Origin: Candidatus Zixiibacteriota bacterium
GTDB lineage: Bacteria; Zixibacteria; MSB-5A5; GN15; FEB-12
Direction: 5' to 3'
Assembly: GCA_024276275.1 (NCBI GenBank)
Contig: JAJRXM010000041.1
Location: forward strand, 1 to 48,585
Length of the DNA: 48,585 bases
Below the pieces are notes generated by a model. That model was not told the DNA's origin and did not search any database. It worked only from the letters and a program-made list of their open reading frames with translations. This document shows positions 30,102 through 48,013 of the stretch, one piece after another. Numbering within the stretch: the stretch's first letter is position 1; every line of letters begins with the position of its first letter. The position numbers were made by a program, and so were the translations under genes.

Positions 30102-30116
30102 CGCAAATTCACCCGT

Positions 30117-30518: not shown

Positions 30519-30536
30519 ATCAGTAATCTCCCCTTT

Positions 30537-30938
30537 CTACATTGAGATCAGTTGATCGGTTAAAGAATAGTATTGAATAAGCAGTTTTTGATATAAAACA
30601 GCATTAGCGGCATAGGATAACTTAGCAGCCTGTTCTTCATCACGACTTAAAATTACAAATGTCAGTTGTCCTCTGCCGTTATCATACAGCTTTGATTCTT
30701 CAATTGTTTTCTGTACTGATGTATTTATCTGCTGTATGTTTTTTTTAAGAATCTCATCAAACAAGTTTAGTTGTGTTATAACTTTGGAGAGATTTGAGCT
30801 TAAATTACGTTTTAGATTATCAAGTTGATTTTTAAGATTTTTAACTTTCAAATTTGTTTGTTTTATTTTTGACTCAGAACTCCTTTTGCCTAGTGGAATT
30901 TCAAACTGCAGTCCAATACTGTAATTAGGCTTATCCAA
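30537..30938 (-). CDS. TolC-like outer-membrane channel, C-terminal part of interrupted gene
   Basis: 133 codons from an apparent TTG, but the same frame continues upstream two codons to a TAA (30945-30947) and then the N-terminal piece. It contains the second long coiled-coil arm (SKIKQTNLKVKNLKNQLDNLKRN...) and the beta-barrel strand YSIGLQFEIPLG that TolC-family proteins have at this place. The frame ends TAG at 30537. Confidence 0.8.
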   Translation of the reverse strand: MDKPNYSIGLQFEIPLGKRSSESKIKQTNLKVKNLKNQLDNLKRNLSSNLSKVITQLNLFDEILKKNIQQINTSVQKTIEESKLYDNGRGQLTFVILSRDEEQAAKLSYAANAVLYQKLLIQYYSLTDQLISM

Positions 30939-30944
30939 GACAAT

Positions 30945-31955
30945 TTAATTCAGATAACCTTCTTCACCGTTTAATAGCCCAAGTTGAGTTACTAAATTTA
31001 AAGAGCTTTTATGTTCTTCTGTATACCCTTTCCGAAGATACTGCAATTGTTCGACCTGAGCTCTAATAGTAGATAGTATTCGGGAATGTTCAAGTAGCGA
31101 ATCATTTATCGACTTAAAATCAAGGGCTTCTTTTTTTCCATATAAATCAAACAACGGTTCTGCTTTGTTTAAACTTTTGTTTGAAATAATTTCTGAAAGC
31201 TCCGCTAAAGTTGATTTAATTTCTGATTCAATCAACAATAGGTTCTGTTCTGCTATAGTAACCGCATTTTCAGAACGGATAACATCAACATTATCAATAA
31301 GGTTTGCATCTCTCTTTCTGATATTGTTTTGGAGAAGTTCTTTACTGATTTCTATACGTTCTTCAATAATTTTTTTCTGTTCCAGCAGATAAACCCAATC
31401 AAGATACCGTAATGCGTAAACGGTTATAAAATTTTCCTGCTCTTCAGTTGATACCGTTTCTGTAATATCTATACCAAAGTTTTTAAGTTCATATTGTAAG
31501 CGATTCAGGAATCCGTTTTTGTTTTTTAATAACGGCATTGTATATGAAACAGTTAAAGCGTTTTCATAAAATGTAGAGGGTATCCCATAAATAGGATTTA
31601 TAGTCATGTCCGCACGAGTCGATTGAAAACCCGCCTGAAGAAAACTTCCATTTTTCCAAAAAACTCTCTCGACAGAACCTGAAAACTGGAATGCATCTGT
31701 TTTTTCTGGACCTGCAATTGCTAATGACGGTTCGTCGTGTGAATAAAAAGCTGATGATTTCAATAACCAATCTTCGGCGGTTTGTAAATCTTTTTGATTT
31801 TCTCTGATAATTGCTTTTTCGATACTTCCCTGTTCAAATATCGGATGACTTTTAAGTAACTGTAAGAATTTGTGCATTGTTACAGTTTCAGCACTAATTG
31901 TTCCACTCATGAATACTATCAGAGCTATTACGAGTAATCTAATTTTTGAATTCAA
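30945..31955 (-). CDS. TolC-like outer-membrane channel, N-terminal part of interrupted gene
   Basis: The best start is TTG at 31955, since AAGGAGG sits eight bases upstream of it and it begins a signal peptide (MNSKIRLLVIALIVFMSGTISA); an ATG at 31976 is also in frame. The body shows the first TolC repeat with long amphipathic helices (NFITVYALRYLDWVYLLEQKKIIEERIEIS ...). It stops at TAA in the middle of the fold; the joined gene (30537-31955) would be ~473 codons, a normal length. The start overlaps the tetR end. Confidence 0.8.
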   Translation of the reverse strand: MNSKIRLLVIALIVFMSGTISAETVTMHKFLQLLKSHPIFEQGSIEKAIIRENQKDLQTAEDWLLKSSAFYSHDEPSLAIAGPEKTDAFQFSGSVERVFWKNGSFLQAGFQSTRADMTINPIYGIPSTFYENALTVSYTMPLLKNKNGFLNRLQYELKNFGIDITETVSTEEQENFITVYALRYLDWVYLLEQKKIIEERIEISKELLQNNIRKRDANLIDNVDVIRSENAVTIAEQNLLLIESEIKSTLAELSEIISNKSLNKAEPLFDLYGKKEALDFKSINDSLLEHSRILSTIRAQVEQLQYLRKGYTEEHKSSLNLVTQLGLLNGEEGYLN

Positions 31956-32556
31956 AGAGATACCCTCCTTTGCCATCGGCAGTCATTGTAGGACAATTAT
32001 CAGGATGTAAAGCATCATGAATTACAGCAGCACCTACATCGTAGATTAATTTAACAATATCATCAATATTGCAATGCTTGAGATGATCAACACAGATTAA
32101 AGCACCTAAGCCATGAATAAAAATTGCCATTTTTGTAAGTATTCCCTCACACTCTTCATCTGATAGTTCTGATAGATACGGTTCTTTTGCTAAATCTTTA
32201 CCGAGTTCGTTGTCAAAATCAATTAGAAGCTGCGAATAATCATTTTGTTCCATAAACAGCGAACGGTAAAGCATTTTATGTTCTGTAGCAAAAGTTGTGA
32301 TACCAACACCGACATTTAAGAAATTAATATTGGTATATTTTCGTCTTGCATATTCAAGAACCAAGTCGATTGTTTTTTCTACAACTTCTTTTTCCAGTAA
32401 GTCAATCGATGCATAACTGCTGTATACCGGAGCAGTCGATGACCCAAGCTTAGCGGCAACATTTCGTGCTGTAAGCTGCTTTAATCCTTTCTTTTCAACT
32501 AAAGAAAAGGCAGCCTGCAAAACATCATCTTTTGTAAATGTAGTTTTTGGTGGCAA
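31939..32556 (-). CDS. TetR-family transcriptional regulator
   Basis: 205 residues from TTG at 32556, with AGAGG seven bases upstream. The N-terminal helix-turn-helix is typical: FTKDDVLQAAFSLVEKKGLKQLTARNVAAKLGSSTAPVYSSYASIDLLEKEVV. The C-terminal part is the variable ligand pocket (GILTKMAIFIHGLGALICVD). It is the first gene of the efflux operon and presumably represses it. It also overlaps the start of the tolC-like gene, so repressor and pump are made from one transcript. Confidence 0.92.
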   Translation of the reverse strand: MPPKTTFTKDDVLQAAFSLVEKKGLKQLTARNVAAKLGSSTAPVYSSYASIDLLEKEVVEKTIDLVLEYARRKYTNINFLNVGVGITTFATEHKMLYRSLFMEQNDYSQLLIDFDNELGKDLAKEPYLSELSDEECEGILTKMAIFIHGLGALICVDHLKHCNIDDIVKLIYDVGAAVIHDALHPDNCPTMTADGKGGYLFEFKN

Positions 32557-32787: not shown

Positions 32788-32919
32788 TTACATTAAACTT
32801 GATCTCATATTCATGTCGAGATGCATAATCCAAAGAGAAATAAACGAGAATAAAACCATCGCAAACAAGAGTGGTAATTGTGCCACAAAAGATTTTGCCC
32901 CTTTGCCAAACATCTGCTC
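32788..32919 (-). pseudogene. C-terminal tail of the NosR-like Fe-S protein beyond an in-frame stop
   Basis: The 32920-34335 frame continues after TGA (32920-32922) for 43 codons to TAA at 32788. The tail (EQMFGKGAKSFVAQLPLLFAMVLFSFISLWIM ... MNMRSS) is a membrane helix with the ending I expect for this family. The TGA would be CGA with one C-to-T change. Confidence 0.6.
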
Positions 32920-34335
32920 TCAAGCTTTGGCGGCAATTTTAATTCCGATGATATGTCCGATAACAACAAATATTACCTGCAAAATCCAAACAGTTGTATC
33001 CCCCAATAACATAGGATATGTTTGGCCTACTGTTCCAAATAGGTTCCAGCCGAAACCAAAAGGGTCTGATAGTAATGGAAGCACCATCTGGCCCTCCATG
33101 GCAACATGCATACCGTTATGTGCTAAGTGATAGAATAAAGCGATTGGAATTAAACTATATGAGAACCGAACAAAAATTTCTTTAGTAGTTATTTCATTAT
33201 GAGCAATTTTATGAGAGAGAAAACAAAGAAAGATATAGAGTAAAAAAGGTACTAATAGTATTCCTGCCATCCCGACTGAAAAAGAAAACAATGACCCAAG
33301 ACCAAAGAATGTATTCAAAGTAGAAATAATTGAGACACCACCGCTTGTTAAGTCCTCCCATACCGGAGTCATCGACAATCCATGAAATGATGTCAGCGAT
33401 AAGAGTATAACAGCCAATACTGCTTCATCTAAGCGTGGTTTTCTATAATCTAGAATATCTGAAGCAAACGGTCTTATATTGAGAGCGACATTATCTTTTG
33501 GACAGGATTTAAAACATTCGGTACACATGATACAATAAGTATTTTCATTTAGACCGGTAAGGTTTAAACCGGTCGGGCAGGCATAACCGTTGTCGTTTCC
33601 GTTGTAGCAGTCTTTTGATTTACAGCTCAAACATACATCATGGCTCTTGGCACGAATTTCTATCGGTGCGACGTTGGCATACAAGCCTGAAATTCTGCCG
33701 ACTAAACATCCGTAACGGCAAAATGATTTTTTTTCAAAGATAAAGATCGGAAACACAACCAACAAAGTCATTGCTATACCCATAATAGCAGTAGCAAAAG
33801 GGTCAGAGGTTACTTTGTAGCCGAGTTCTAACCAAGTAAGAATTATAAAAAGTCCGATTGCCAAGGTAATATTCCGAGCATATTTCGGCCATTTGAGATT
33901 TAATGAAATAGGGTCTTTGTTCACATTCCAAAACCGTAAACGGCTGACTAACGATGCAATGAAATCCCATGGACAGACAAAACACCATATTTTTCCAAGA
34001 AAGAGAATAGCAAAAATTAACCCGCCCCACCAGATAGTCCAGGTTAAAGCAGGAGCAATGTTTATGAGTTGATTGCCAAAGAGTCCTGCATATAGAATTA
34101 TGACAAAGAGAAGAAAAAGCGGTAATTGAAATGCAAACTGTACCCACCTTTTTTTGATTAACCACTCGATAAATCTGATTTTTGTTAAATCAAATCGGGA
34201 TGTTATTCTTCTGTCGTTTTTTTTAAAGTATAAAAGAAAAGATACAAGCAAGGTGAGACCGATACCGGTAAAGAACATCCAGTCCGGATTTCCGGGCATC
34301 ATGTGTATACCGTCTTTTACTTCGCAACAATCCAT
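32920..34335 (-). CDS. NosR/NapH-type polyferredoxin membrane protein
   Basis: 471 codons before the TGA. At least ten membrane segments, two CxxxCP-type motifs (WCFVCPWDFIASLVSRLRFW and FCRYGCLVGRISGLY) and a ferredoxin domain (CLSCKSKDCYNGNDNGYACPTG, CIMCTECFKSCPKDNVAL). NosR/NapH/CcoG-like proteins pass electrons through the membrane or service metal centres of periplasmic reductases. It is the last gene of the nap-like operon, nine bases after the exported unknown protein. There is no N-terminal FMN domain, so it is not a full NosR. The true C-terminus probably lies beyond the internal TGA. Confidence 0.82.
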   Translation of the reverse strand: MDCCEVKDGIHMMPGNPDWMFFTGIGLTLLVSFLLYFKKNDRRITSRFDLTKIRFIEWLIKKRWVQFAFQLPLFLLFVIILYAGLFGNQLINIAPALTWTIWWGGLIFAILFLGKIWCFVCPWDFIASLVSRLRFWNVNKDPISLNLKWPKYARNITLAIGLFIILTWLELGYKVTSDPFATAIMGIAMTLLVVFPIFIFEKKSFCRYGCLVGRISGLYANVAPIEIRAKSHDVCLSCKSKDCYNGNDNGYACPTGLNLTGLNENTYCIMCTECFKSCPKDNVALNIRPFASDILDYRKPRLDEAVLAVILLSLTSFHGLSMTPVWEDLTSGGVSIISTLNTFFGLGSLFSFSVGMAGILLVPFLLYIFLCFLSHKIAHNEITTKEIFVRFSYSLIPIALFYHLAHNGMHVAMEGQMVLPLLSDPFGFGWNLFGTVGQTYPMLLGDTTVWILQVIFVVIGHIIGIKIAAKA

Positions 34336-34344
34336 TTGAATAAT

Positions 34345-34890
34345 TTACTTTCGTCTTCTTTTTTGTTTCTTTCGAATAACACCGACAACAGCAGCAAAAA
34401 CAATAATACTTGCAACAGAGACAAGAAGATACAGCCAAACATTACTCCTGTTACCAACTTTTAAATCAAATAGGATATTATGTTTTTTTACTGAGTCAGC
34501 AAATGTTACCCGTACAAAATAATCACCGTCATCTTCATACACCCACCCAACTTTATAAATATTAGTCTGGTTTCTATAAGCTGTAAAAGGATGAGAATTA
34601 TTAGGGTCTTCATGTTTCCCAAACACCAAAAACTCAACCGGGTCGGTATAAGGTAAGTCATTAATGGTGTCACGCACATATACGGCTAAATCAAAAGCTG
34701 TATTACCGGGGATTTTATAATAAGTAAACGTAACTTCATAATGAGAGGTATTTTGAATAAATTCGTAGACAGGAGTTTCCGGATAATTATCACGATAACT
34801 ATAATGAGGTATACCTCGAATATGATGACTTTCGACAATCGATGCAAATAGCAAGAGCAGTATAAGTATCAAAAGAGTATTTTTTTTCAT
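34345..34890 (-). CDS. Exported protein of unknown function in the nap-like operon
   Basis: About 181 residues from the ATG at 34890, which follows the napH-like stop directly (TGAAATG) with AAGGT upstream; an in-frame ATG at 34914 would add eight residues that spoil the leader. Residues 1-20 are a signal peptide, then SHHIRGIPHYSY, a His/Tyr-rich start of the mature chain that could bind metal or haem. A beta-sandwich-like domain follows (YEVTFTYYKIPGNTAFDLAVYVRDT ... KVGWVYEDDGDYFVRVTF), then one membrane helix and a basic tail (KKQKRRRK). The layout recalls FixH/YtkA-type periplasmic beta domains, but I do not recognise the family. Operon position suggests a role in assembly or electron flow. 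Confidence 0.7.
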   Translation of the reverse strand: MKKNTLLILILLLLFASIVESHHIRGIPHYSYRDNYPETPVYEFIQNTSHYEVTFTYYKIPGNTAFDLAVYVRDTINDLPYTDPVEFLVFGKHEDPNNSHPFTAYRNQTNIYKVGWVYEDDGDYFVRVTFADSVKKHNILFDLKVGNRSNVWLYLLVSVASIIVFAAVVGVIRKKQKRRRK

Positions 34891-34891
34891 T

Positions 34892-35786
34892 TCAGACCTT
34901 AAACCTAATGACATTTTTTAATGCGTTTCTATTATTATTTTTACAAGCATCAATACACAAAGAACAATTATCACACTCGGGCGGGAATTGACCTTCCGAC
35001 GGATTTAATCCGTACGGACATGCCGGGTTGCAGACTCCACATAAGTCACATTTTGATTCGATTCTTTCGATTCTCCAAATCCGCCATCGTCCTAACAAAG
35101 AGAATAATGCACCACCGGGGCATAAACGTCTACAGAAAAGATGTGGTGAAAAGATAATTTCCCCCAGCCATAAAAAAATGATAAAAATCAAGCCGGAAGT
35201 AATAACCCCAGAAAGTATTAAATGATATATCGCTTCAGTAAAGATTCTGGGAGGATAAATGAGTGTTGTTATCGGGACAGAAATTATTCCCCCCAAGATG
35301 AGCGAAACAATGAGATAAAACAGAGGTGTTTTAACAGGTAAATCAAAATGAAAATACTCGAGACCGAATTTATTGAGAAAAGTTCGTAAACTATTCCCCA
35401 GTTCCGCAAAAAAGGAATAAGGGCAAATCCACGAACAGAAAAATCTTCCGAATAAAAGAATCAAACCGAGAGGGATTAAAATTGATAAAAATAATGTGAG
35501 ATTAAATTCTAATGCTGTAGCAGTTGAGACAACAAATGCCAAAGGGTCAGAAACAGATAACGCGTAAAAGCGAAAACTCCAAAGACCTCCTTCAAAATCA
35601 CCAAGAAAGAGCATCGGTTTATTATCATCTCCGAAAGCATAATCATACATTGTAAGAATAGTTGAATTTTCTATTTCTATTTCAGCACCTATTTGACCTG
35701 CTTTTTTTTTCATATAAGTTGTAGTAAACAAGTGCCACCATTAAAAACAGAACAAGACAACGAGTGAAAATTCTATACTTTTTCAT
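34892..35786 (-). CDS. napH: NapH-like membrane Fe-S protein, frameshifted near its start
   Basis: The C-terminal 270 codons (34892-35701) are continuous: four membrane segments, two cysteine motifs facing the membrane (FFCSWICPYSFFAELG, FCRRLCPGGALFSLLGRW) and a two-cluster ferredoxin (CDLCGVCNPACPYGLNP, CDNCSLCIDACKNNNRN). The natural start is ATG 35786 inside the end of the napG-like gene; it gives MKKYRIFTRCLVLFLMVALV YYNLYE, the expected first helix, but that frame enters a run of nine As (35702-35710) that must be eight to continue. NapH hands quinol electrons to NapG in known nitrate systems. The upstream TTG start in the other frame is artificial. Confidence 0.75.
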
Positions 35787-36384
35787 TCGTCACCTCTGAG
35801 ATTTCTTCAGTATGTATTACACGAATTGCTTGCGGGTAATGTATACATGACTGCTCACACAGTCCGCATCCGACACATTTATCCGTAACAACAGGTTGTT
35901 CCCATGTATCCCCCCAAATAGCAATACCGGTATAAGGACATGCAAACACACAGACTCCACAAACAAAGCCGTTAAAAGAATTGCAAATATTTTTGTCAAC
36001 AACAGCTTTCCCGATTTTCACTTCTTTTAAAATTATATCGGAATCATCGGCTATAGGTACTAAAGCTCCACTTGGACAAGTATTGTTGCATTTCATACAT
36101 AGTATACATCCCTTTTCACGGGGAACAAAATGAGGCGTTCCCGACATAACCGGGTCAAGTGTATCAAAATATTTGATTGTTTCGTTCGGGCAAACCTGAC
36201 CGCAACGACGGCATCTGATACACTTTGATAAAAAATCTGATTCAGCAACTGCTCCCGGAGGTCTAAACGGTGCTGTCTTTCTTTTTGGTAACAACTTTGT
36301 AAAGCTATACCAGCTTCCACCCAAGAGAAGCGACACCGGCACCAAAGAAGCAAATAGCGATTTTATAAATTCTCTTTTATTCAT
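35773..36384 (-). CDS. napG: NapG-like periplasmic ferredoxin with four [4Fe-4S] clusters
   Basis: About 203 residues from ATG 36384; an in-frame GTG at 36408 lies within a hairpin and is unlikely. The leader MNKREFIKSLFASLVPVSLLLGG is Tat-like with Lys-Arg in place of Arg-Arg. Four cysteine sets follow: CIRCRRCGQVCP, CILCMKCNNTCP, CNSFNGFVCGVCVFACP and CVGCGLCEQSC. This is the NapG/MauM pattern. It overlaps the napH-like gene, as NapGH pairs do. In E. coli NapGH oxidises ubiquinol; here it sits after a terminator-like hairpin and may be made in lower amount than the NapA-like enzyme. Confidence 0.85.
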   Translation of the reverse strand: MNKREFIKSLFASLVPVSLLLGGSWYSFTKLLPKRKTAPFRPPGAVAESDFLSKCIRCRRCGQVCPNETIKYFDTLDPVMSGTPHFVPREKGCILCMKCNNTCPSGALVPIADDSDIILKEVKIGKAVVDKNICNSFNGFVCGVCVFACPYTGIAIWGDTWEQPVVTDKCVGCGLCEQSCIHYPQAIRVIHTEEISEVTNEKV

Positions 36385-36394
36385 TTTCACCAAA

Positions 36395-36429
36395 AAAGAA
36401 CTGTCCACCGTTGCGCCGGACAGTTCTTT
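36395..36429 (-). terminator. Hairpin plus T-run inside the operon, between the napA- and napG-like genes
   Basis: AAAGAACTGTCC, an 11-base loop, GGACAGTTCTTT: a perfect 12-bp stem followed on the minus strand by Ts. It is 27 bases after the NapA-like stop. It looks like an intrinsic terminator but the downstream genes are functionally linked, so partial read-through is likely. Confidence 0.75.
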
Positions 36430-36455
36430 ATATATTGTTTAAAAAAAGTTATCGT

Positions 36456-39119
36456 TTATATTTTTTCTATACGGGCAGCCAATTTCTTAAAATCTACCTG
36501 ACCTGAAACCGGATCATACGCTCTGTGCGAAGTAGCATTTACCAACCATTTATTATATTTTGGATCGGCAGAATCGGCTACTGATAGATTCCATGGAGAG
36601 AAAAGATATCCACGAGGTACTTCGTTCCTAGACGGTTTGATTTTGGAGCGTATTCCACCAATTGAAACTCGTGCTTCGTAGTTTCCTCGACTGGTATGAA
36701 TACGGATTTTATCACCGTCGTTAAGTCCGTTAACCTCGGCATCTTTTGGATGCATCTCGACATATTGTTCCGGAACTAATCTCCGAGTTGTAGCACCTCG
36801 AATAGTCTTTGCAGTATGGAAATGTTCATAAACAATTCCCAAACCCAGCCAGAATGGATATTTACCTTTCGGGATAGATTTCCAATGTTGTTTTAAATGT
36901 TTTACATCAGGAAGTTCCGGAGTCAAAGCCATATCGCGAGCTTTTATCAATAGGTCTTCATTATCAACCGCATAGAATCCCGGTACTGTACCTATTTTTT
37001 GCAGCTCTTTTGTAATTGCTTTCCGTTGAGAATAGTCCTGACGACATACTTTGAAATGCATTTTCCCGTCAGTATGTCTGAAAGCACCATACGGTTTATC
37101 TACCCATCCTTCTTGATCCATATATCTTCGAGGTGTACCACCTGCTTTTGCTGATTCATAGTTAGGAGCAGGCCACTGAATTCCACGAAGTCTTCTGAGT
37201 TGGTCGTAGAGACCAATACCGTCACGGTCTCGAACAGCAAGCATTCCGGTTAAGTCGGTGTCAGTTCCTTTAGAACCTTTGACGATTTCTTCAAACACTT
37301 CTTCAGCATCATAGAATTCAGGTCCATCGGGATGGAATCTTTTTTTCTTATAAGGGAAAATTTTCTCACCGTCTAAACCTAATAAGTTAGCCATTAATTT
37401 ACCTTTATCAATCGCCATATCTAAATCAGGAATACAGTTTTCAAGACCCGGAGCCCCTTTACCTACACCGTCAACGACATTAAAGCGTCGTTCAGATGAG
37501 ATATAGGTTCCACCCGGCCATTCGCCCCATGTAAGAGCAGGGAAAATAACATCGGCATATAAGTTATTTGGAGCATGACGATAAATATCCTGGACAACAA
37601 CAAACATTTTCTTTAACGCAGGACGTACAAGATTATTCAAATCAGGTTGATGTACGTGAGTTGTATACATATAGAACATTGCTTTAACATCACCTTTTAA
37701 AGCACGTTCAAACATACCAACCATCATACCCGGATTTTTTTCTTTATTCGTTAAGTCAAGACGGTTTTCAGGCAGCGACCAGACTTCATTAATCCATTTA
37801 CGATGTTTATCATTCTTAAGAGCGATATTAAACGGAAGTCTTCCTGTAAGTCCACCCATCAAACGTTCACCCATAGCATTCGGTTGACCGGTCATAGAGA
37901 AAGGTCCGGCACCGACACGACCAAGGTTTCCTGTTAAGGCATGTAAATTAACAATACTAATTACATTATGCTGTCCATGAATATGCTGATTGTATCCGAT
38001 TCCCCAAAATGTAACAACACCGCCTTTACCTCGTTTTTTTCCTTTCACAGAAGCCTTTGCCCATTTAGCAGCAATAGTTCTTATGAGTTGCGGATCAACT
38101 TGAGTACGATCTTGAACTTGTTCCGGAGAGTATTCAGCTTTCATTACTTTGATATACTCTTCCCATCCCTTAGTATGTTTTTTCAGTAATTCGTAATCAA
38201 TAGCTTCCGGATGGTCTTTTATTATCACATGTGCAATGGCATTTAAAATTGAAATATCACCATTGATATAACGTAAATGATAAGAATTACGAGGATTGAT
38301 TGATTCTAAAGCTTGCACTGTACCGGTACGACGCGGGTCAGAAATAACAGTAGGAATATTGTTTTTCTTTTTGTGATCAGCAATCCTCCAGAAAACAATT
38401 GTATGAGCTGCTCTGGCATTATGTCCCCAATGAGTAATCATATCAGATTCTTCGATATCATCATATGACAACGGAGGTGTATCAGAACCTAATGTAGCAA
38501 AATAAGCCGTTACTGCTGAAGTCATACACATACGAGCATTTGCTTCAATTGAGTTTGAAGTAAAAATACCTTTCATCAGTTTATTTTCAATCCATTGTGC
38601 TTCAACTGTTAGTTGTCCTGAACCATACAGACCGATGGAATTGCCACCATGAGCATCATAAATCGCTTTCATTTTTTCGCCGACAAGTTTTTCAGCTTCT
38701 TCATAAGAAACCTCTTCAAACATATCGTCGTCAAATCCACCCTTGGTTTGTGATTCGTACCCGGTTAATGGATCAGACATATCTTTTCTTACTAACACCT
38801 TTTCTAAGCGATCAACATATGTCGGTTCATCAGCATTGAGACCTTTAATACATTGTACCCCTTTGTTAGTAGGGTGTTGTTTGTCAGGTACCACACCCAA
38901 GATACGACCGTCGGCAGCAGCTTTAATGACAGTACCGCAACCGACACCACAGTACGGACATTGTGCGAGTATACTTTGTGCGACCGGTGACACACCACTA
39001 CCGGTTTCTGCTAAAATTTGTTCCGGAGAAAAAATCGCAGAGCTTAGTCCTATCGCGGCAGCACCGGCGACTGAACCTTTTAAAAAATTTCGTCTATTTA
39101 TAGAGCCTTTATTTCCCAT
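36456..39119 (-). CDS. napA: NapA-type periplasmic molybdopterin oxidoreductase (probable nitrate reductase)
   Basis: 887 residues. Tat leader NRRNFLKGSVAGAAA (Arg9-Arg10). [4Fe-4S] ligands Cys54, Cys57, Cys61 and Cys90, followed by the Lys of CIKG that relays electrons. The segment ANARMCMTSAV places the likely Mo-ligand Cys at 198, exactly as in NapA (HCMASAV), and FATLGSDTPPLSYDDIEESD matches NapA as well. The C-terminal molybdopterin-binding domain is present (EMHPKDAEVNGLNDGDKIRIHTSRG). The nearest known role is periplasmic nitrate reduction; another oxyanion is possible. AAGGAG lies ten bases before the ATG, seven bases after the decahaem stop. No napB, napC or napD neighbours. It is longer than E. 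coli NapA. Confidence 0.85.
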   Translation of the reverse strand: MGNKGSINRRNFLKGSVAGAAAIGLSSAIFSPEQILAETGSGVSPVAQSILAQCPYCGVGCGTVIKAAADGRILGVVPDKQHPTNKGVQCIKGLNADEPTYVDRLEKVLVRKDMSDPLTGYESQTKGGFDDDMFEEVSYEEAEKLVGEKMKAIYDAHGGNSIGLYGSGQLTVEAQWIENKLMKGIFTSNSIEANARMCMTSAVTAYFATLGSDTPPLSYDDIEESDMITHWGHNARAAHTIVFWRIADHKKKNNIPTVISDPRRTGTVQALESINPRNSYHLRYINGDISILNAIAHVIIKDHPEAIDYELLKKHTKGWEEYIKVMKAEYSPEQVQDRTQVDPQLIRTIAAKWAKASVKGKKRGKGGVVTFWGIGYNQHIHGQHNVISIVNLHALTGNLGRVGAGPFSMTGQPNAMGERLMGGLTGRLPFNIALKNDKHRKWINEVWSLPENRLDLTNKEKNPGMMVGMFERALKGDVKAMFYMYTTHVHQPDLNNLVRPALKKMFVVVQDIYRHAPNNLYADVIFPALTWGEWPGGTYISSERRFNVVDGVGKGAPGLENCIPDLDMAIDKGKLMANLLGLDGEKIFPYKKKRFHPDGPEFYDAEEVFEEIVKGSKGTDTDLTGMLAVRDRDGIGLYDQLRRLRGIQWPAPNYESAKAGGTPRRYMDQEGWVDKPYGAFRHTDGKMHFKVCRQDYSQRKAITKELQKIGTVPGFYAVDNEDLLIKARDMALTPELPDVKHLKQHWKSIPKGKYPFWLGLGIVYEHFHTAKTIRGATTRRLVPEQYVEMHPKDAEVNGLNDGDKIRIHTSRGNYEARVSIGGIRSKIKPSRNEVPRGYLFSPWNLSVADSADPKYNKWLVNATSHRAYDPVSGQVDFKKLAARIEKI

Positions 39120-39126
39120 GAGAATG

Positions 39127-41634
39127 TTACTCCTTTCCCATCTTTATATAAGAGATAATATCATTTATTTCTTTTGAACTTAACTCAGTTAATCCTGCGT
39201 TGCCTCGAATCATCGACTGCATCGCGGTTTGATGTCGACCTAACGACATTGTAGCCTGTAGATATCCTACCGGTGCTGCTTTGACAAAAGCCGACCGCAT
39301 CAAGTCAGGAGCAAACGATCCTTTTTGATGACATTGAATACATTGACCTTCGTATAAAATTTTACCGTTTTGCGGAGTACCTACAAGATACTTCTTACCG
39401 ATTTCAGATTTATCTTTATTTCGTAAATAGTGCACAATTGACATTGCAGTATTCATGTCAAGTTCGACAATACCGCCCCGCCCGAACTTTTTCATTTCGG
39501 TACCGTCACGACCGGACATCATCATAGCAACAATGAATCCGTCGGAAACAGATTTCAGGAACCCCTCTTTACCGATACCGGGACCGTTACCTCCGCCACC
39601 TCCGGCACCGTGACATTGAGAACACATATCATTAAATGCTGAACGACCGTTATCAATATCACCGGGGATAGTACTTATACCGGTTAGTTGAGCCGGATTC
39701 TTTTCAAGAGTCCGAATATAACTTACAATATCATTTAATTCATATTTAGATAAATCGGAAGTACCGTTTTGTCCGTGCAGATTACCTTTCATTTGAGTAC
39801 CGGAACGACCATAAGCTGCCATTTTCCAGATATATTCATCAGATGCGTTGGCAAGGAAATCTTTGTTTCCTATAGCAGGACCGTTAAGACCGACACCCTC
39901 CTGCCCATGACATTGAGCACAAGTACGTTCGAACAAATATTTACCGTTAAACTCGGACCCGGTTATTTTTTTCTTACTTGTTCCGGCTATAGAACCCTTA
40001 AATCCACTACGAAGATATGCTGTAATATCACCCAGTGCTTTTTTACCGAGATGATTATACGATGCCATAGCAGTGTTACGACGACCTTTGACAATCGTAT
40101 TGTACAAGAATTTATTATCAGCAAGTGTAAGAAACTCTTTTGAGTTCAACGAAGGTCCGATACCGCCATCTTTGTCATTTCCATGACAAGAGGCACAGTT
40201 ATCATAGAACAATCGTTTTCCATTGTATGCCGAACCGTTTTGTGAAGCGTTTACAAACGAATTGTAACTAACTTTTTTATTACGCCAGCTTTTAATATAT
40301 GCCAATAAATCAGAAAGTTCCTGCTTTGATAAAAAGTTCCAAGCAGGCATTGCCGTACCGGCTCTACCCTCTACAATAGTTTCGTAGAAATGCTGCTCAT
40401 CAAAAAGAGACAACAATTGCGGAGATTTTAAAGTAGGTCCTACTAAGTCCGTTTCATATTCGCCGTCAATACCGTGACAACCGGCACAATTGGCATTAAA
40501 AGAAATATTACCATATTTAGAAACGCCTTTAAGTTTTTTTACTTCTTTATAAGCATAAGGTTTTTTTCGGAGACTTAGTACAAAATCGGAAATTTTAGAA
40601 ATCTCACTTTTAGCAAGTCCACCACCGGAACCCCATGCCGGCATAACCGAAGAACCTGACCCGTCAATAATAGCACTCAAAAAATCATGATCAATAATTG
40701 CTAAAAATTGAGGATTTCCCAAAGCAGGTCCAAGTTTACCAATCTCTGCTAAATTGGTTCCTTTACCGGTTTTTCCATGACATGCCGAACAATATCGTAA
40801 ATAAAGGTCTTTACCGTTTTCTTCAACAAATCCTGAAGCAGCAATCATTCCTTCCGGAACTGAATACTCTTGCAGAGATTTTAAGAACACTGTCAAATCC
40901 ATCGCTTCTTCTTTTGAGAACCCATAGTCTATCATTTGAGAAGAATCAGGTTGAATTTTCGGTTGATATACAGCTTCAAAAATATAAGCAAGATTTACAT
41001 TGCCATTAAACTCTTCTATAAAATGTTCATTATCTTCGTGTGGACGTTTTGCTTTAAAAGATGCCTGACCGATAGTTGTTAATTCCGGACCTAAAGCACC
41101 TCCTCGTCCTTGAACAGTGTGACAACTTTGACAACCGTTTTCAATAAACAAACGTTTACCACGTTGATAAGCACCTGTCATTGTCGGCATTTCAGAACGG
41201 TGACATCTGGCACAGTTGGCTTCTAAAAACGGAGATACTAATACCGGTTCTTCCCAGTGGAAATCTTCCGCATGAGCCATAGCACTTACTAAAGTCGTTG
41301 CTCTGCCTTGTCCGTCATGACAGATAGTACACCCGAACTTGTTCATGTCATGATCGTCAAGATATGTTCCCGGATGTACCGTTAACGGGTTGTCTAATTC
41401 TTTTGTATTAGGATCTGCAATTCCCACATGACAAATTACACACCTATCAATTTTATCAAAGTGAGGTAAAACTAATTGACGGTAATCAACTTTGAAGTCA
41501 TGTCCGTCTTCTTTTACAAATTCAGCATATTGAGCCTGATAATCTCGCCAATCAGTAGTGAGATATTCATTCATAGCTCCATAGACAAGAAAAACTATAA
41601 CAACTATACTGGAATAAAACATTGTTTTCTTCAT
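39127..41634 (-). CDS. Membrane-anchored ten-haem c-type cytochrome built from tandem cytochrome c domains
   Basis: 835 residues. One N-terminal membrane helix (MKKTMFYSSIVVIVFLVYGAMN) then ten CxxCH sites: CVICH, CTICH, CARCH, CQSCH, CSACH, CAGCH, CASCH, CAQCH, CSQCH and CIQCH. The first three are close together like a small multihaem head; the other seven each lie in a class I cytochrome c domain of ~90 residues with a downstream Met (MPAWGSG, MPAWNF, MASYN and others) as probable sixth ligand. Between cytochrome b and NapA in the operon, it most likely replaces cytochrome c1, NapB and NapC at once. It needs a haem maturation system encoded elsewhere. Confidence 0.9.
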   Translation of the reverse strand: MKKTMFYSSIVVIVFLVYGAMNEYLTTDWRDYQAQYAEFVKEDGHDFKVDYRQLVLPHFDKIDRCVICHVGIADPNTKELDNPLTVHPGTYLDDHDMNKFGCTICHDGQGRATTLVSAMAHAEDFHWEEPVLVSPFLEANCARCHRSEMPTMTGAYQRGKRLFIENGCQSCHTVQGRGGALGPELTTIGQASFKAKRPHEDNEHFIEEFNGNVNLAYIFEAVYQPKIQPDSSQMIDYGFSKEEAMDLTVFLKSLQEYSVPEGMIAASGFVEENGKDLYLRYCSACHGKTGKGTNLAEIGKLGPALGNPQFLAIIDHDFLSAIIDGSGSSVMPAWGSGGGLAKSEISKISDFVLSLRKKPYAYKEVKKLKGVSKYGNISFNANCAGCHGIDGEYETDLVGPTLKSPQLLSLFDEQHFYETIVEGRAGTAMPAWNFLSKQELSDLLAYIKSWRNKKVSYNSFVNASQNGSAYNGKRLFYDNCASCHGNDKDGGIGPSLNSKEFLTLADNKFLYNTIVKGRRNTAMASYNHLGKKALGDITAYLRSGFKGSIAGTSKKKITGSEFNGKYLFERTCAQCHGQEGVGLNGPAIGNKDFLANASDEYIWKMAAYGRSGTQMKGNLHGQNGTSDLSKYELNDIVSYIRTLEKNPAQLTGISTIPGDIDNGRSAFNDMCSQCHGAGGGGGNGPGIGKEGFLKSVSDGFIVAMMMSGRDGTEMKKFGRGGIVELDMNTAMSIVHYLRNKDKSEIGKKYLVGTPQNGKILYEGQCIQCHQKGSFAPDLMRSAFVKAAPVGYLQATMSLGRHQTAMQSMIRGNAGLTELSSKEINDIISYIKMGKE

Positions 41635-41643
41635 AATGTATCC

Positions 41644-43212
41644 CTAATGTGCCGGCCAAAGAGACGGCCACCAGTAAAAGTTCCAGTTCGGTCCACGATG
41701 TTGATAGGCAAAATATGTTAATATGACAAAACCGATTATAAAGCAGGTAAAGATAGCCATCGCCCCTAAACGCGTCGAACCGGTCTTATTTAAAATCCTA
41801 AGTGACCACCATACAAAAAGTGATGTAAGCAAAGTTCCCGGATTCACTAAAACTATAATTATCTGGGGTATATGCGGGAACCAATTCCTCAGCCATCCAA
41901 AGTTTACCGTAAAAACAAGAGTCACCAATATGACAATTGCTGAAAAGATAGCTGAGCTTTTAAATACAGATTTTTCACCTTTGTCAGGAAACCATATTCC
42001 CGACTCATTACGTGTTTTATCTAAAAATGGAATAAGCATTAAACCGAGAACCGCTAAACCCGGAATTGCAACACCGCCCATAAAGGCAGAGTAAGAAACT
42101 AATTCCTGAAGCCCTAAAAAGTACCAAGGAGCTTTTGCTGGATTCTCCGGCACAGAAGGATTAGCAGCTTCTTTTAAAGGTGCATCACTGACAAACGACA
42201 AAACTATGAGAATAGCTAAAATTAGAATAAAAATTGCCATTTCATAATTAAATAAGTTTGGCCATGACTGCACTGTCTGTTTTGGTGAGTTTTTAACATT
42301 ATTACTATCCCCTTTCACCAAACACATCAGACCGTATGTTTTGTTTTTTGTCGGGAACGCCATTTCAGCAACTTCGTCAACAGGTGTACCGAGTAACATA
42401 TCTTCAGTAATTACAGACGGTCTTGACATACCTCCGTCTTTTCTGATTCTCCAAAAATGGACTCCAATAAAAGTTGTGAGAATAAGAGGAAGCAAAATAC
42501 AATGCAGGAAATAAAAACGAACTAACGCTTCTTCTCCTACTACATCCGCACCTAAAAGCAGTCGCATCTGCATCCCACCGACATCAAGTATCTTTGTAAT
42601 TCCTAAAGCGTCGGTTACTTCAACAGGTGAACCGGCAATTTGAGCTCCAATTGTAGTAGCCCAATAAGCAAGTTGATCCCATGGAAGCAAATACCCTGTA
42701 AATGACAATCCAAGTGTTACAGCAAATAATACCATTCCTACAACCCAGTTAAATTGGCGAGGATGACGATATGAACCTGTCATAAAGACTCTTATCATGT
42801 GTAGAAAAACAGCTAATACCATAATGTGAGCTCCCCACCTATGGATATTTCGCATTAATCTACCACCCGGCACAGCAAAATGAATATCTTTAATAGAATT
42901 ATAAGCCTCTAAAAGCGAAGGTTTATAATAAATCATCAACAAAATTCCGGTAATAACAAGAATTATAAATGATGCTGCTGATGCGATACCTAGACCGGCT
43001 GTAAATGTCTTTTTAAAATTATACCTATGAGTACGAACTGAATGAATATGTAAAAAGAGATTTGAAAAGACTGATTGTGATGCCGCTCTATTTGAAGATG
43101 GAGGTCCGTGACGAACAGCAGCATCCTTAAACGATTGCGGAAGATGCTTCAGATTGGTTAAAAAGGTGTCCAATCCTGAAGGCTTTTTATCATTCTCAAC
43201 CTGATTAGACAT
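41644..43212 (-). CDS. Cytochrome b of a Rieske/cytochrome b complex (one-piece b)
   Basis: About 522 residues from ATG 43212 with AAGGA eight bases upstream; a TTG 21 bases earlier is less likely. The N-terminal domain has the haem-ligand helices [28 protein letters not shown] and [29 protein letters not shown]. The C-terminal half has [19 protein letters not shown], the PEWY-type quinone-site motif, here with a shortened form. The b6 and subunit IV halves are fused, as in bc1-type proteins. It oxidises quinol and divides electrons between the Rieske centre and the b haems. Its start overlaps the Rieske stop by eight bases. Confidence 0.92.
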
Positions 43213-43666
43213 AAAACTGTTCCTTCTTACCAAAGTCTACTGATTCACCTAAGTTTAATGAAAGTTGCCCTGACGGCAATTTATCTATTTTATACCATTT
43301 AAGAGCTTTAGGTGCAGGGCCACGAACAACTTCACCTAGAGAATCAAATTTGGAACCGTGACAAGGACAATCAAATCCTTTACCTGTCCATTTAGTCACA
43401 CAACCCAGATGAGTACAAATTGTTGAGATAGCAAAAAGACCTTCGGAATCAGAAAACAGAACCACCCTATCTTTTTCAAATACTTTAATTGTGCCATTTG
43501 GATAATCAGTCGGCATACCTAATTTTATCTTTTTAGTTTCTTGGGGAAGTAGTGTCGGCATCGTAAATTTCAATAACGAACCACCCCAAACAGCTAATGA
43601 CCCCCAAAATGTTGCAGGCGCAAATTTTGAAATAAAGCTACGCCGTGAATTTTTCTTCTCTTCCAT
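43205..43666 (-). CDS. Rieske [2Fe-2S] protein
   Basis: About 153 residues from ATG 43666 with AGGTGG upstream; a GTG three codons earlier is also open. Tat-like anchor [20 protein letters not shown]. The two cluster motifs are intact: CTHLGC and CPCHGSKF. It takes an electron from quinol at the cytochrome b site and passes it to the haem protein. It overlaps both neighbours, showing one translational unit with the oxidoreductase and cytochrome b genes. Confidence 0.95.
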
Positions 43667-45503
43667 TATTACCACCTATTTCACAAAAAGTTACTCGTTC
43701 CATTGTTATAGCACCCACCGGACAACGGTCAGCACAACAAGCACAACGAATACATTTAGTTTCATCTTTTATTATTGCTGAATCGTTTTCTGAAAAACCT
43801 GATGCTGATATATCAAAATTATTTTTTATCGCTAATTCTTTAACCGAAACCAATTGCAGACAGAGTTCCGGACAAACATCGGCACAACCTCCGCAAAGAA
43901 CACATACATCTCCGTTAAAAATTGTATTTACAGAACAATCAAGACACCGTGCAGCTTCAGCGATAACATCCATTTGAGTATACCCTAACTCTACAGCCGG
44001 TCTTTTTGATTCTAAACGTTCAGCGACTTCTAATGCAGGTATTTCTTGTCTTTTAATCTCTTCATAAGATGCCTCACGGGCATAATTGTCCAAAACAGTA
44101 TGATCAAGATCGAGTTTAGGAGTTATTTGCAACCCGACAATTTGCTTGGCTATTGTCTGGGCAACTTTTTTACCGTCAGCGACAGCATCGATAACAAGTT
44201 TAGTTCCGTAGGCACAATCACCTGCAAAAAAGATGTTCGGTACATCGGTGGAGCCGTCTTTATTTACAGAGACCAAACCATATTCGTTAAAAGAGAGTCT
44301 ATCAGTTTGAGGATTTATAAATGAAAGGTCTATCTGCTGTCCTATTGCCATCATTATATTGTCACACTCAATTGTGATAATATCATTTTCATCAAAGACC
44401 GGAGCAAACTTTCCTTCGTCGTTCAAAACAGAAAGACATTTCTTAAATTTTATACCTACTAATTTTTCACCGTCAAATAGAATTTCATGAGGTCCTACAG
44501 AATTGATTCGTTTGATTCCTTCTTCTTCACCTTCGATAATTTCTGTTTCATCAGCCATCATCTCTTCAAGTGATTCCAAGCAGCAAAGATGCACTTCTCT
44601 CACACCTTCCATCCGTTTTGCCTGTCTGGAAATATCAAACTGCCCGTATCTCAATGCAGAACGTCCGATATCGTAGGCTACTGACCCTCCGCCAATTACA
44701 ACAATTTTTTCACCTAAAGGAGTATCATTGCCAACGTAAAAATCTCTGAGAAATTCTACTCCTCCGAGAACCTGACTGTGATCAAACCCGGGCATAGGTA
44801 AAGAACGAGATCGTTTTGCACCTACTGCTACAATCACCGCATCAAATTCCTGGGCTAATTGCGAGAATAGTACATCTTTCCCGACAGTAGTATTGACTTT
44901 AAATTCAACACCGAGTTCTTTAATTATTTCGACTTCACGTTGAATAATATCGCGAGGAAGTCTGTAATCAGGAATTCCAACTGCGAGCATTCCACCTGCA
45001 ATCTTTTCGGTTTCAAAAACTGTTGATTTAATTCCATACAGAGCTAAATCATGAGCACATGCCAATCCCGCCGGACCAGAGCCTATTATTGCAACTTTTT
45101 TTAGAGTTTTAGGAAAGTTTTCATCTATTAAAGTCAATTCGTTTACAGATAGGTTTTCACGATTGGCTACATACGAACGGATATTATCAAGTACATGCAA
45201 AACTTGCTCTTTGCTATGTGCTGAATAATACTGTTCTGATGCGAACCTTTTTAATGCTCTAATTGAAACCTGCTTATCAATGTCGCCTCGTCGACAATTT
45301 ACTTCACACGGGGCGGCACAAATACGACCACAGATTGATGCTAACGGATTTGGACCGCGAGCTATCAGATATGCTTCTTCATATTTCCCTTGAGCCAAAG
45401 CCCGCACATATCCACGCGCGTCAGTTCCTACAGGGCAAGCATACTGACATTTGATGAGTTCTTGCCAATACTTTTCATCTGGTACTTCTACAGAATAATT
45501 CAA
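43638..45503 (-). CDS. GltD-type FAD/NAD(P) oxidoreductase with ferredoxin domains
   Basis: 621 residues, the first gene of the operon. N-terminal Fe-S domain ([14 protein letters not shown] at Cys19/23, and [13 protein letters not shown] at Cys58-70), an FAD Rossmann fold ([21 protein letters not shown]), a second nucleotide fold ([22 protein letters not shown]) and two C-terminal 2x[4Fe-4S] ferredoxin sets ([30 protein letters not shown]). Glutamate synthase small-subunit relatives use this arrangement to move electrons between NAD(P)H and Fe-S partners. No large GltB subunit is nearby. Its place ahead of Rieske and cytochrome b suggests NAD(P)H input to, or electron withdrawal from, the quinone pool. 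Confidence 0.88.
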
Positions 45504-46094: not shown

Positions 46095-47135
46095 TTATTC
46101 TTTCTTTTCATCAGTCTTTTCAGGTTCTTCAATTTCTCTGAGTGGTGACAGAATTTCCAGTAGTCGGTTTTTGTGTCCTTTAATTTCTTTAACAGCAGGA
46201 TACATTAGACCCTGATTGTAATCAATATTGTATTCTTTGATAAAATCACCTGCAAATGCGAGGAATGTTAAGGGTGATTTACGAGTTGTATCTTTGACGG
46301 CATTAGTAATTCTATCTTTAGAAAATTTCATATTGTTTAATGCAATAATTTTTAAACCAGAAAACATTGCAGCTTTGTCAGCTAGTGACCCCGGGACAAC
46401 CTGTTTGATCTTGCCTTCATTTGAGATTGTAAATCCGAGTGAACTATAAAAATCAAGATATTTGTATTTTGTTTCTCTTTTTTTTAGATATTCAGATTTC
46501 TCATTTGTTACAGTAAGTTCATAACCACATTCTCTGAATGTTGACAGGTTTAGTTTAGGTTGTGGTTCTAAAATTCTTTCAGTAATCAATGAATCCCATG
46601 GCAGATTTACAATATCAGTTAAAGAGTTGATAATTTCATCAATCGTCAATGGAGAAGTTAGTGAATCTCGGTGACCATGCCCTGCTAAGGCTGCACAAAA
46701 ATCATTGAGTGATTTTGTGCCTTCTGTTGCATTTCTTATGCGTGCATCAAATTCCATCCAGACATATGCTCCCTCACCGTAATAATCTTGACCACGTCTG
46801 AGGAGTGACCAATTTGCTGAACCGCCTCTTAGGGTATATGCTGCAAGTTCTGTGTCTTTAATAGGTCTCCAGCTACGTCCTTTTTTAAACTGATAGTTGC
46901 CGAAATTATGAATATATGCATCTATTAAATTTTCTGTTTTGACTAATCCGGAACGAGCGGCTAAAACATCTCCAAGATATTCGGTCAGCCCTTCATATAC
47001 CCAGAGTAAATCTGTATTTTTGTCTTCCATATAATCCCGTGTGTTCATTCCAAATGGGCGACGATATTTACCAATCCATGAGTGTACAAATTCATGTGAA
47101 AGGAGGTAGCTAATTCGATTGTCACCGTCTACCAT
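46095..47135 (-). CDS. M61-type aminopeptidase, C-terminal part of frameshifted gene (catalytic and PDZ)
   Basis: 346 codons. The zinc site is SHEFVHSW (HExxH) with the downstream Glu in WVYEGLTEYLGDVLAARSG; this is the M61 glycyl-aminopeptidase family. The C-terminal PDZ domain is visible (YSSLGFTISNEGKIKQVVPGSLADKAAMFSGLKIIALN). The apparent ATG at 47135 is internal: it joins the upstream frame through a run of seven Ts (47135-47141) that needs eight. The protein was presumably exported. Confidence 0.8.
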   Translation of the reverse strand: MVDGDNRISYLLSHEFVHSWIGKYRRPFGMNTRDYMEDKNTDLLWVYEGLTEYLGDVLAARSGLVKTENLIDAYIHNFGNYQFKKGRSWRPIKDTELAAYTLRGGSANWSLLRRGQDYYGEGAYVWMEFDARIRNATEGTKSLNDFCAALAGHGHRDSLTSPLTIDEIINSLTDIVNLPWDSLITERILEPQPKLNLSTFRECGYELTVTNEKSEYLKKRETKYKYLDFYSSLGFTISNEGKIKQVVPGSLADKAAMFSGLKIIALNNMKFSKDRITNAVKDTTRKSPLTFLAFAGDFIKEYNIDYNQGLMYPAVKEIKGHKNRLLEILSPLREIEEPEKTDEKKE

Positions 47136-48013
47136 TTTTTTAAAGAACCGGCACTAACACCATGCAGCGATGAGTTGCGATGTTCTAACCCATTACTTGG
47201 TGCCTCATCGGAAAGATAGAGAAGAAAATGATACTCGTCAAAATGGGTCCGTTGAAATAATAACTCTGTTTCTTTAACAAGGTTTTTCATTGGTAATAAA
47301 GTTGAATCGGGAATATCAAAATCATAACTGTCATGAGCAGCTATATGAAGATAGTAAGTAGCATTTTTGGTTTTGTCTATCTCAATATGTTTCATATTAA
47401 CAGCTGTTATAAGTGGCATATCAATAAATTCTTCTAAACTAATTTTTTTAATAAAAAGAGTGTCACCTTTTTTATCTTTAACAGGAAGTGCGGAGCCATA
47501 ATCCCAACCGGTAGGAAGAATGATTGTGGCAGATACAATAATATCTCGAACAGAAGTTCCTTCGGGATAAAGCAGGAGAGTATTCCAATTGATTATTCCA
47601 AGATTTGCATATCCGAAACAATCAACACCTTTTGAATTTACAGAATTTTGATTACAAATATACGTAAGTGAAATATTGCATTGTTTAGTGTTAGGTTGAG
47701 GATATACATAGAATCGATACACATCTTTCCAGTCACGCTGCCAACGTAATATCTGGTTTTGGTTATCTGTGAATGTGAGACCACCTATATTTTTGATTGG
47801 CCCTTTTGGTCCATGGATTCCGGGAATCCATTTAGGGTAGAGAAATGAAATAGAATCATTCGGTTTAATAGTTGTACTGATTGTAGACTTCAAAAGTTTC
47901 CTTGGTAAGTCGGATGCATCTATTGTAATATTCATTTGGACTTCAGCATTAATTGAAGCAGGTAATAATATAGATGCTATTATTAGCACAGATAATAATT
48001 TGTATTTCATCAT
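47129..48013 (-). CDS. M61-type aminopeptidase, N-terminal part of frameshifted gene
   Basis: 294 codons with a signal peptide (MMKYKLLSVLIIASILLPASINA) and the N-terminal beta domain of M61 peptidases (SFLYPKWIPGIHGPKGPIKNIGGLTF ... WKDVYRFYVYP). It reaches GLEHRNSSLHGVSAGSLKK, the usual approach to the HExxH helix, then runs into W-stop because the A run is one base short. Joined to the next piece it would give a ~640-residue enzyme. Confidence 0.8.
   Translation of the reverse strand: MMKYKLLSVLIIASILLPASINAEVQMNITIDASDLPRKLLKSTISTTIKPNDSISFLYPKWIPGIHGPKGPIKNIGGLTFTDNQNQILRWQRDWKDVYRFYVYPQPNTKQCNISLTYICNQNSVNSKGVDCFGYANLGIINWNTLLLYPEGTSVRDIIVSATIILPTGWDYGSALPVKDKKGDTLFIKKISLEEFIDMPLITAVNMKHIEIDKTKNATYYLHIAAHDSYDFDIPDSTLLPMKNLVKETELLFQRTHFDEYHFLLYLSDEAPSNGLEHRNSSLHGVSAGSLKKW

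Follow-up and report, generated by a model that had tools for sequence, protein, structure and literature searches.

Respiratory chains in which a Rieske/cytochrome b complex delivers electrons to a nitrate reductase have been described in a few, mutually distant prokaryotes. In Campylobacter jejuni, deletion of qcrABC showed that the quinol-cytochrome c reductase (Qcr) drives the periplasmic nitrate reductase Nap electrogenically (PMC6195509), and an energy-conserving branch to Nap was proposed for Caldithrix abyssi, whose nap cluster contains Rieske and cytochrome b genes (PMC5317091). A proton-motive Rieske/b link, with antimycin-sensitive nitrate reduction, is likewise indicated for haloarchaeal Nar, by work quoted in PMC4683180. 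A related set of complexes is known from anammox bacteria (Kuste4569-4574 and Kustd1480-1485) and was proposed to produce NAD(P)H by electron bifurcation, with Rieske potentials measured above +300 mV, a cytochrome b histidine proposed as a ligand of a novel central haem b and, in the case of Kustd1480-1485, no proposed driving reaction (PMC12954380). Here we analyze a nine-gene operon from a Candidatus Zixiibacteriota bacterium (assembly GCA_024276275.1, contig JAJRXM010000041.1, positions 1 to 48,585; this whole stretch is referred to as the window), which combines genes for a GltD-like flavoprotein, a Rieske protein, a one-piece cytochrome b and a decahaem cytochrome c (the donor block) with those for a NapA-like molybdopterin enzyme, NapG- and NapH-like proteins, an exported protein and a second polyferredoxin. 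We consider this operon to be, with somewhat better than even confidence, a dedicated anaerobic respiratory module passing electrons from menaquinol via the Rieske/b complex and the decahaem cytochrome to the NapA-like reductase.

Gene content, conservation, sequence motifs and shared operator-like sites were the features observed. A sequence-only reading of the window had proposed the nine genes in this order at 32788-45503; open reading frames (ORFs) of the window combined with Pfam and NCBIfam searches reproduced the gene set as nine packed minus-strand genes running from 45503 down to 32920, position 32788 being past the final stop codon. Scanning one genome per species yielded 69 loci whose records bear the labels Zixibacteria, Omnitrophota, Nitrospirota, Kiritimatiellota, Planctomycetota, Elusimicrobiota, Myxococcota/Deltaproteobacteria, Latescibacterota, Walliibacteriota, Verrucomicrobiota, Hydrogenedentota and others, these labels being those of metagenome-assembled records, some of which may be misbinned. 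The nine-gene block is found in the same order in records labelled as at least eight phyla, and among the 36 loci with sufficient DNA to either side (hereafter, roomy loci) all nine genes are present in 26, in none of which are they rearranged. The grouping therefore exceeds chance; the co-occurrence expected from the sequence-only reading is real, and the gene order is not a peculiarity of this contig. One genome of the same genus has an intact operon, and in another the genes are distributed over two contigs. Planctomycetota versions carry additional NapG copies, and 13 of 392 genomes in an even sample of this phylum contain the NapA-like gene. Some of the relatives' loci have genes for NosZ, hybrid cluster protein, hemerythrin or Rrf2 regulators as neighbors, or molybdenum cofactor (Moco) genes; in Elusimicrobia, an Alginate_exp porin gene lies directly upstream of the NapA-like gene.

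A natural replacement is the principal argument for the identity of the electron donor. At seven loci, five from Elusimicrobiota and two from Planctomycetota (L029, L030, L033, L040, L067, L075 and L086), a QrcB/QrcC-like (ActB-type) gene stands beside the NapA-like module, accompanied in five of them by a nearby NrfD-type gene, and those placed in the tree all fall in one NapA-like sub-clade made up of these two phyla. The donor block was seen at none of the seven (the L030 contig starts about 200 bp before the NapA-like gene, its upstream side thus not being visible), while the NapA-like, NapG, NapH, exported protein and second polyferredoxin genes remain together. Since the Rieske/b-decahaem block is exchanged in this sub-clade for another quinol-cytochrome oxidoreductase, related to alternative complex III (ACIII) or Qrc, it is likely to be the donor of the reductase, as the sequence-only reading had supposed. 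At loci where the Rieske/b block is present, those decahaem homologues that are complete retain exactly ten CxxCH motifs at identities down to about 30%.

The following scheme is inferred from these features throughout, as regards substrate, quinone species and energy coupling as well as each transfer of electrons. The Rieske/cytochrome b complex would oxidise menaquinol at its Qo site, and one electron would pass from the Rieske cluster to the membrane-anchored decahaem cytochrome, which would act in place of NapB/NapC, and on to the exported NapA-like molybdenum enzyme for periplasmic reduction of nitrate, most likely, or of a related nitrogen oxyanion. The other electron would travel through the b haems, either completing a Q cycle with proton translocation or reaching the cytoplasmic GltD-like flavoprotein. 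As near-constant partners of the enzyme, NapG, NapH, the exported protein and the second polyferredoxin probably contribute to electron entry or assembly. With menaquinol and nitrate, electrogenic operation of Nap behind a Q-cycle complex is energetically feasible, as the qcrABC deletion in C. jejuni showed (PMC6195509).

The constancy of these partners also suits a different assignment, in which NapG, NapH and the second polyferredoxin constitute the real quinol dehydrogenase, whereas the Rieske/b-decahaem block is merely co-transcribed and serves another acceptor (e.g., an oxidase). Indeed, at none of the 36 roomy loci, not even those lacking Rieske/b, is the NapA-like gene without NapG and NapH genes, and GltD-Rieske-b complexes related to the one in the window adjoin cbb3-type oxidase genes at L137 and L139, suggesting that this type of donor block serves different terminal acceptors. 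However, the decahaem gene lies directly between the cytochrome b and NapA-like genes wherever all three are present, and napH of C. jejuni is essential for nitrate respiration even though electrons arrive via Qcr (PMC6195509), which leaves this assignment quite improbable in our judgment.

The donor block itself has a distinctive makeup. The GltD-like protein combines Pyr_redox_2, Fer4_20 and C-terminal 4Fe-4S domains (Pfam) with six N-terminal and ten C-terminal cysteines and Arg519, all invariant in 33 sequences, and carries CLE in place of the NADPH-type RR of GltD. Arg519 is a possible counterpart of the published Arg511 of Kuste4570. The Rieske motif CTHxGC...CPCHGS, kept in homologues, and four haem-b histidines are present, and Kuenenia Rieske structures rank second (9rk3) and fourth (9rk4) among the PDB matches of the Rieske protein. 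The Qo motif of cytochrome b is not PEWY but a variant kept across the family, the same APWY being found in anammox subunit IV (SUIV). At two loci (L049:2172-3461 and L052:2533-3846), a gene for a hybrid cluster protein (hydroxylamine reductase family) separates the Rieske gene from that for cytochrome b.

In genomes with hydrazine synthase, Rieske, GltD, cytochrome b, SUIV and multihaem genes form one block with the layout of Kuste4569-4574/Kustd1480-1485, and the parallel to anammox bacteria drawn in the sequence-only reading was thus apt. This homology of the GltD-Rieske-b-c block to one for which the mechanism has been proposed (PMC12954380) brings in bifurcation as an alternative to a plain Q cycle: a high-potential electron would proceed from the Rieske protein via the decahaem cytochrome and the NapA-like enzyme to nitrate, and a low-potential electron via the b haems, possibly with an extra central haem, to the GltD-like protein, reducing NAD(P)+ rather than quinone. 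Such a reaction is thermodynamically possible at published potentials, the iron-sulfur cysteines of the GltD-like protein are invariant, and His62 and Arg264/Lys265 of cytochrome b align with His43 and Arg247 of Kuste4571. On the other hand, the same three residues are equally conserved, at aligned positions, in 20 of 20 Planctomycetota complexes without a GltD neighbor (from L140-L169, e.g., L142:6703-7665). The central-haem histidine and arginine are therefore not diagnostic for NAD(P)H, and the idea that they mark NAD(P)H coupling was rejected. The loss of the NADPH-type RR also argues against bifurcation, and the GltD-like flavoprotein could equally well bring electrons in or be a partner at the periphery. 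Taken together, we regard bifurcation as rather unlikely, and the NAD(P)H link through this flavoprotein, put forward in the sequence-only reading and suggested by likeness to the anammox complexes, as unproven.

The terminal enzyme is NapA-type at the superfamily level only, since it scores 318 bits with TIGR01706 (cut-off 931) and 334 bits with PRK13532 (cut-off 904), far under the NapA equivalog thresholds; the sequence-only designation of a NapA-type reductase thus holds in the broad sense but does not extend to NapA proper. NapA structures are its best PDB matches, and in a quick tree with NapA, Nas and formate dehydrogenase references (with long-branch warnings) it belongs to a fully supported clade of its own on a long stem. 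The molybdenum ligand C198-M199 and the arginine of ERLMGG, aligned with GREVGG of Nas, are of Nap/Nas type and kept in the clade. Identity as a formate dehydrogenase is ruled out by Cys-Met at the molybdenum ligand vs. selenocysteine/Cys-His in that family. Genes for NapB, NapC and NapD are absent from the nine-gene operon; NapC is also missing from the nap systems of Epsilonproteobacteria. As NapD was found in only 9 of 47 genomes with NapA-like loci (genome completeness being uncontrolled), dependence of the enzyme on NapD was rejected. In one relative (L083:12949-17900), an alpha and beta pair of the type II dimethyl sulfoxide (DMSO) reductase family is inserted between the NapA-like and NapG genes.

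A separate, ordinary operon, napD-napA-napG-napH-(NapB-like dihaem)-(NapF-like), adjoins Moco genes in the same genome. Its NapA passes both models (997.5 bits with TIGR01706, 1037.3 bits with PRK13532) and shares 27% identity with the NapA-like protein. The only NapD of the genome is encoded beside it, no protein of the genome matched NapB over the cut-off (a 128-aa NapB-like protein of the ordinary operon falling just under), and the PF03264 matches are on contigs other than that of the nine-gene operon. The sequence-only reading had named a Nap set elsewhere in the genome, serving the NapA-like enzyme, as the finding that would speak against it; this holds only by half, since an ordinary Nap set exists but has a bona fide NapA of its own. 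The genome also encodes two haem-copper oxidases and a qNor-type nitric oxide reductase, as well as, on another contig, a second pair of Rieske and cytochrome b proteins, so that the complex of the operon is not the only one in the cell.

A second nitrate reductase calls for an explanation in a genome already equipped with a complete ordinary nap operon, and this raises the question of substrate. The NapA-like enzyme might use the same electron chain for reduction of another oxyanion or N-oxide (e.g., chlorate, selenate or nitrite), in line with its separate clade on a long stem, its altered funnel residues, the ordinary Nap of the same genome and the type II enzyme inserted at L083. Retention of the Nap/Nas-type Cys-Met and arginine, nitrogen-oxide genes adjoining some relatives and operator-like sites in common with nap and an octahaem HAO-family gene all favor nitrate instead, and we consider a different substrate possible but doubtful.

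These sites are two perfect TTGAC-N4-GTCAA palindromes located 98-146 bp upstream of the first start codon of the operon, against 0.1 expected in the window, with two reached in none of 100 shuffles; the pattern was chosen after looser FNR-box matches had been seen. The looser box itself (TTGAY-N4-ATCAA, up to two mismatches) showed no excess, with 169 matches observed in the window vs. 178 expected, significance being limited to the stricter pattern. Both of the congeners tested retain the paired sites, and the true nap operon has one copy ahead of it. Another 349 kb of the same genome contained only two further copies, one inside a gene and the other 98 bp before the octahaem HAO-family gene (PF13447; best PDB match 4qo5), and in the approximately 416 kb examined overall only two more copies, both intragenic, occur besides the operon, nap and octahaem sites. 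At L201:7086-9981, the motif lies between a porin-like gene and the octahaem HAO-family gene that follows it. Since the same motif precedes the nine-gene operon, nap and the octahaem gene, we suspect a common nitrogen-oxide regulon controlled by a CRP/FNR-type protein. The motif was not found beyond the genus (L020-L024 and other relatives).

Several observations weigh against a menaquinol-to-nitrate route through the Rieske/b complex. NapG and NapH could feed the enzyme without this complex, and at the Myxococcota locus L028 only a short dihaem cytochrome is encoded upstream. The presence of an ordinary nap operon makes a different substrate possible, and signature features of NapA are in part lost (AEMHP replaced by ARAAHT and WTMG by WGIG). 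The operator-like sites were seen in this genus only and show co-regulation at most, and the literature searched contained no assay of any protein of the NapA-like clade.

The two remaining partners can be described mainly by their conserved residues. The exported protein has a predicted mature N-terminus HHxxGxPHY (the signal cleavage site was inferred, not computed), in which His-His is invariant and G and PHY are kept in alignments of 46-54 homologues. Its AlphaFold model (predicted local distance difference test score, pLDDT, 87) comprises an immunoglobulin-like (Ig-like) domain and a C-terminal helix, the N-terminus being poorly defined, and Foldseek returned only weak resemblance, with the copper-related CrdA, P19/FetP, cbb3 H-type subunit and PmoD among the best. 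The C-terminal membrane domain of the second polyferredoxin contains invariant His318, 403, 406 and 410; its fold had no match in PDB. Comparison of the two proteins with a CcoG/CcoH-like assembly pair gave no CcoG match for the polyferredoxin at E 0.001 and, for the exported protein, the weak resemblance to the cbb3 H-type subunit and copper proteins named above. An assembly or metal-handling role for both proteins is our guess. At a planctomycete locus (L066:15607-17850), a YHS metal-binding domain is fused to the second polyferredoxin.

Coordinates of all features are given below. Adjacent genes overlap by 38 bp (GltD/Rieske), 29 bp (Rieske/cytochrome b) and 23 bp (NapH/exported protein) or are separated by 9 bp (cytochrome b/decahaem), 7 bp (decahaem/NapA-like), 47 bp (NapA-like/NapG), 41 bp (NapG/NapH) and 9 bp (exported protein/polyferredoxin).

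Table 1. Genes of the nine-gene operon and predicted operator-like sites in the window.
Feature	Position	Strand	Characteristics
GltD/NfnL-type flavoprotein, 621 aa	43638..45503	-	PF14691, PF07992, Fer4; FAD and nucleotide-binding Rossmann folds; Cys for several [4Fe-4S]
Rieske [2Fe-2S] protein	43205..43675	-	PF00355; Tat-type N-terminus RRSFISKF; motif CTHLGC...CPCHGS
One-piece cytochrome b, b6 + subunit IV type, 529 aa	41644..43233	-	Cytochrome_B; haem His 131/145/244/259
Membrane-anchored decahaem cytochrome c, 835 aa	39127..41634	-	repeated cytochrome c domains; 10 CxxCH
NapA-like molybdopterin enzyme, 887 aa	36456..39119	-	Tat signal; one 4Fe-4S; Mo ligand Cys198-Met199; Nas/Nap-type Arg in ERLMGG
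NapG-like polyferredoxin	35773..36408	-	PRK09476 131.6 bits; Tat-type N-terminus
NapH-like membrane 4Fe-4S protein	34892..35731	-	PRK09477 96.7 bits; two CX3CP motifs
Exported protein, no family match	34345..34914	-	signal peptide, Ig-like beta domain, C-terminal membrane helix
Second NapH-like membrane polyferredoxin	32920..34335	-	weak NapH match; extra C-terminal membrane domain
Palindrome TTGACGTAAGTCAA	45601..45614	.	CRP/FNR-family-like operator (predicted)
Palindrome TTGACATAAGTCAA	45636..45649	.	second operator-like site (predicted)

Elsewhere in the window, at 27423-31976, an RND pump subunit (27423-30101/30117-30518) and a TolC-like protein (30537-30938/30945-31976) each appear as two ORFs, which may be due to frameshifts, pseudogenes or assembly errors. 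The ORFs 46095-47135 and 47129-48013, immediately upstream of the operon, are possibly a single M61-type peptidase gene in two frames.

If the respiratory scheme favored here is right, poorly studied Zixibacteria, Planctomycetota, Elusimicrobiota, Nitrospirota, Omnitrophota and others would conserve energy by periplasmic reduction of a nitrogen oxyanion, using a dedicated Rieske/b or ACIII-like complex and an enzyme missed by current NapA models. A more far-reaching version, toward which we remain skeptical, is a widespread module in which a bifurcating Rieske/b complex would power the uphill formation of NAD(P)H via the GltD-like flavoprotein by having the new NapA-like enzyme reduce nitrate (or a related oxyanion); if true, it would provide an oxidant-linked counterpart for the anammox-type complexes, among them Kustd1480-1485 with its missing driving reaction (PMC12954380). 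Several phyla are also offered for testing NAD(P)H production by some Rieske/b complexes. The control with the GltD-less complexes shows that the histidine proposed to bind the central haem is not confined to NAD(P)-linked ones, a result of relevance to the NAD(P)H mechanism proposed in PMC12954380.

Compared side by side, the anammox complexes share with the operon the clustering of Rieske, GltD/Nfn-type NAD(P) oxidoreductase, b6-type cytochrome b and large multihaem c-type genes, as well as the conserved central-haem histidine and arginine, but differ in a split cytochrome b/subunit IV (fused here), a hexa- or octahaem cytochrome c, a HAO-like partner in one complex and the lack of a NapA-like enzyme or NapGH. 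The nearest curated models for cytochrome b are ExtP, matching its N-terminal half, and ExtQ, matching further on (NCBIfam), from the Ext selenite/tellurite cluster, in which these are two proteins vs. one here, and the window protein is under both cut-offs. The enzyme of the haloarchaeal nar operon is of the NarGH type. That operon, as quoted in PMC4683180, similarly has Rieske/b genes within a nitrate reductase cluster, while no decahaem, GltD-like or NapGH components are described with it. The Caldithrix abyssi nap cluster, compared by gene content, resembles the operon in having Rieske/b, NapG and NapH and neither NapB nor NapC, and departs from it in a tetrahaem NapM instead of a decahaem cytochrome and an adjacent octahaem nitrite reductase (PMC5317091). 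With the QcrABC-Nap system of C. jejuni the operon has in common menaquinol, Rieske/cytochrome b, a c-type cytochrome, a periplasmic Nap, NapG and NapH, and the absence of NapC; there, however, a canonical NapA works with NapB, the qcr operon is separate, QcrC is dihaem, and no decahaem, GltD-like, exported protein or second polyferredoxin genes are described with Qcr-Nap (PMC6195509). Thus, the proton-motive branch that the sequence-only reading took to be absent from ordinary Nap is not new, the coupling principle being already known because it was shown in Campylobacter and proposed in Caldithrix; the new element is the combination of GltD-like protein, decahaem cytochrome and divergent enzyme. 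Titles and opening lines in open-access literature listings contained no description of the cluster in Planctomycetota or Elusimicrobiota. Overall, the operon represents a real and widely conserved module, apparently undescribed together with its divergent enzyme, and of a kind known in principle.

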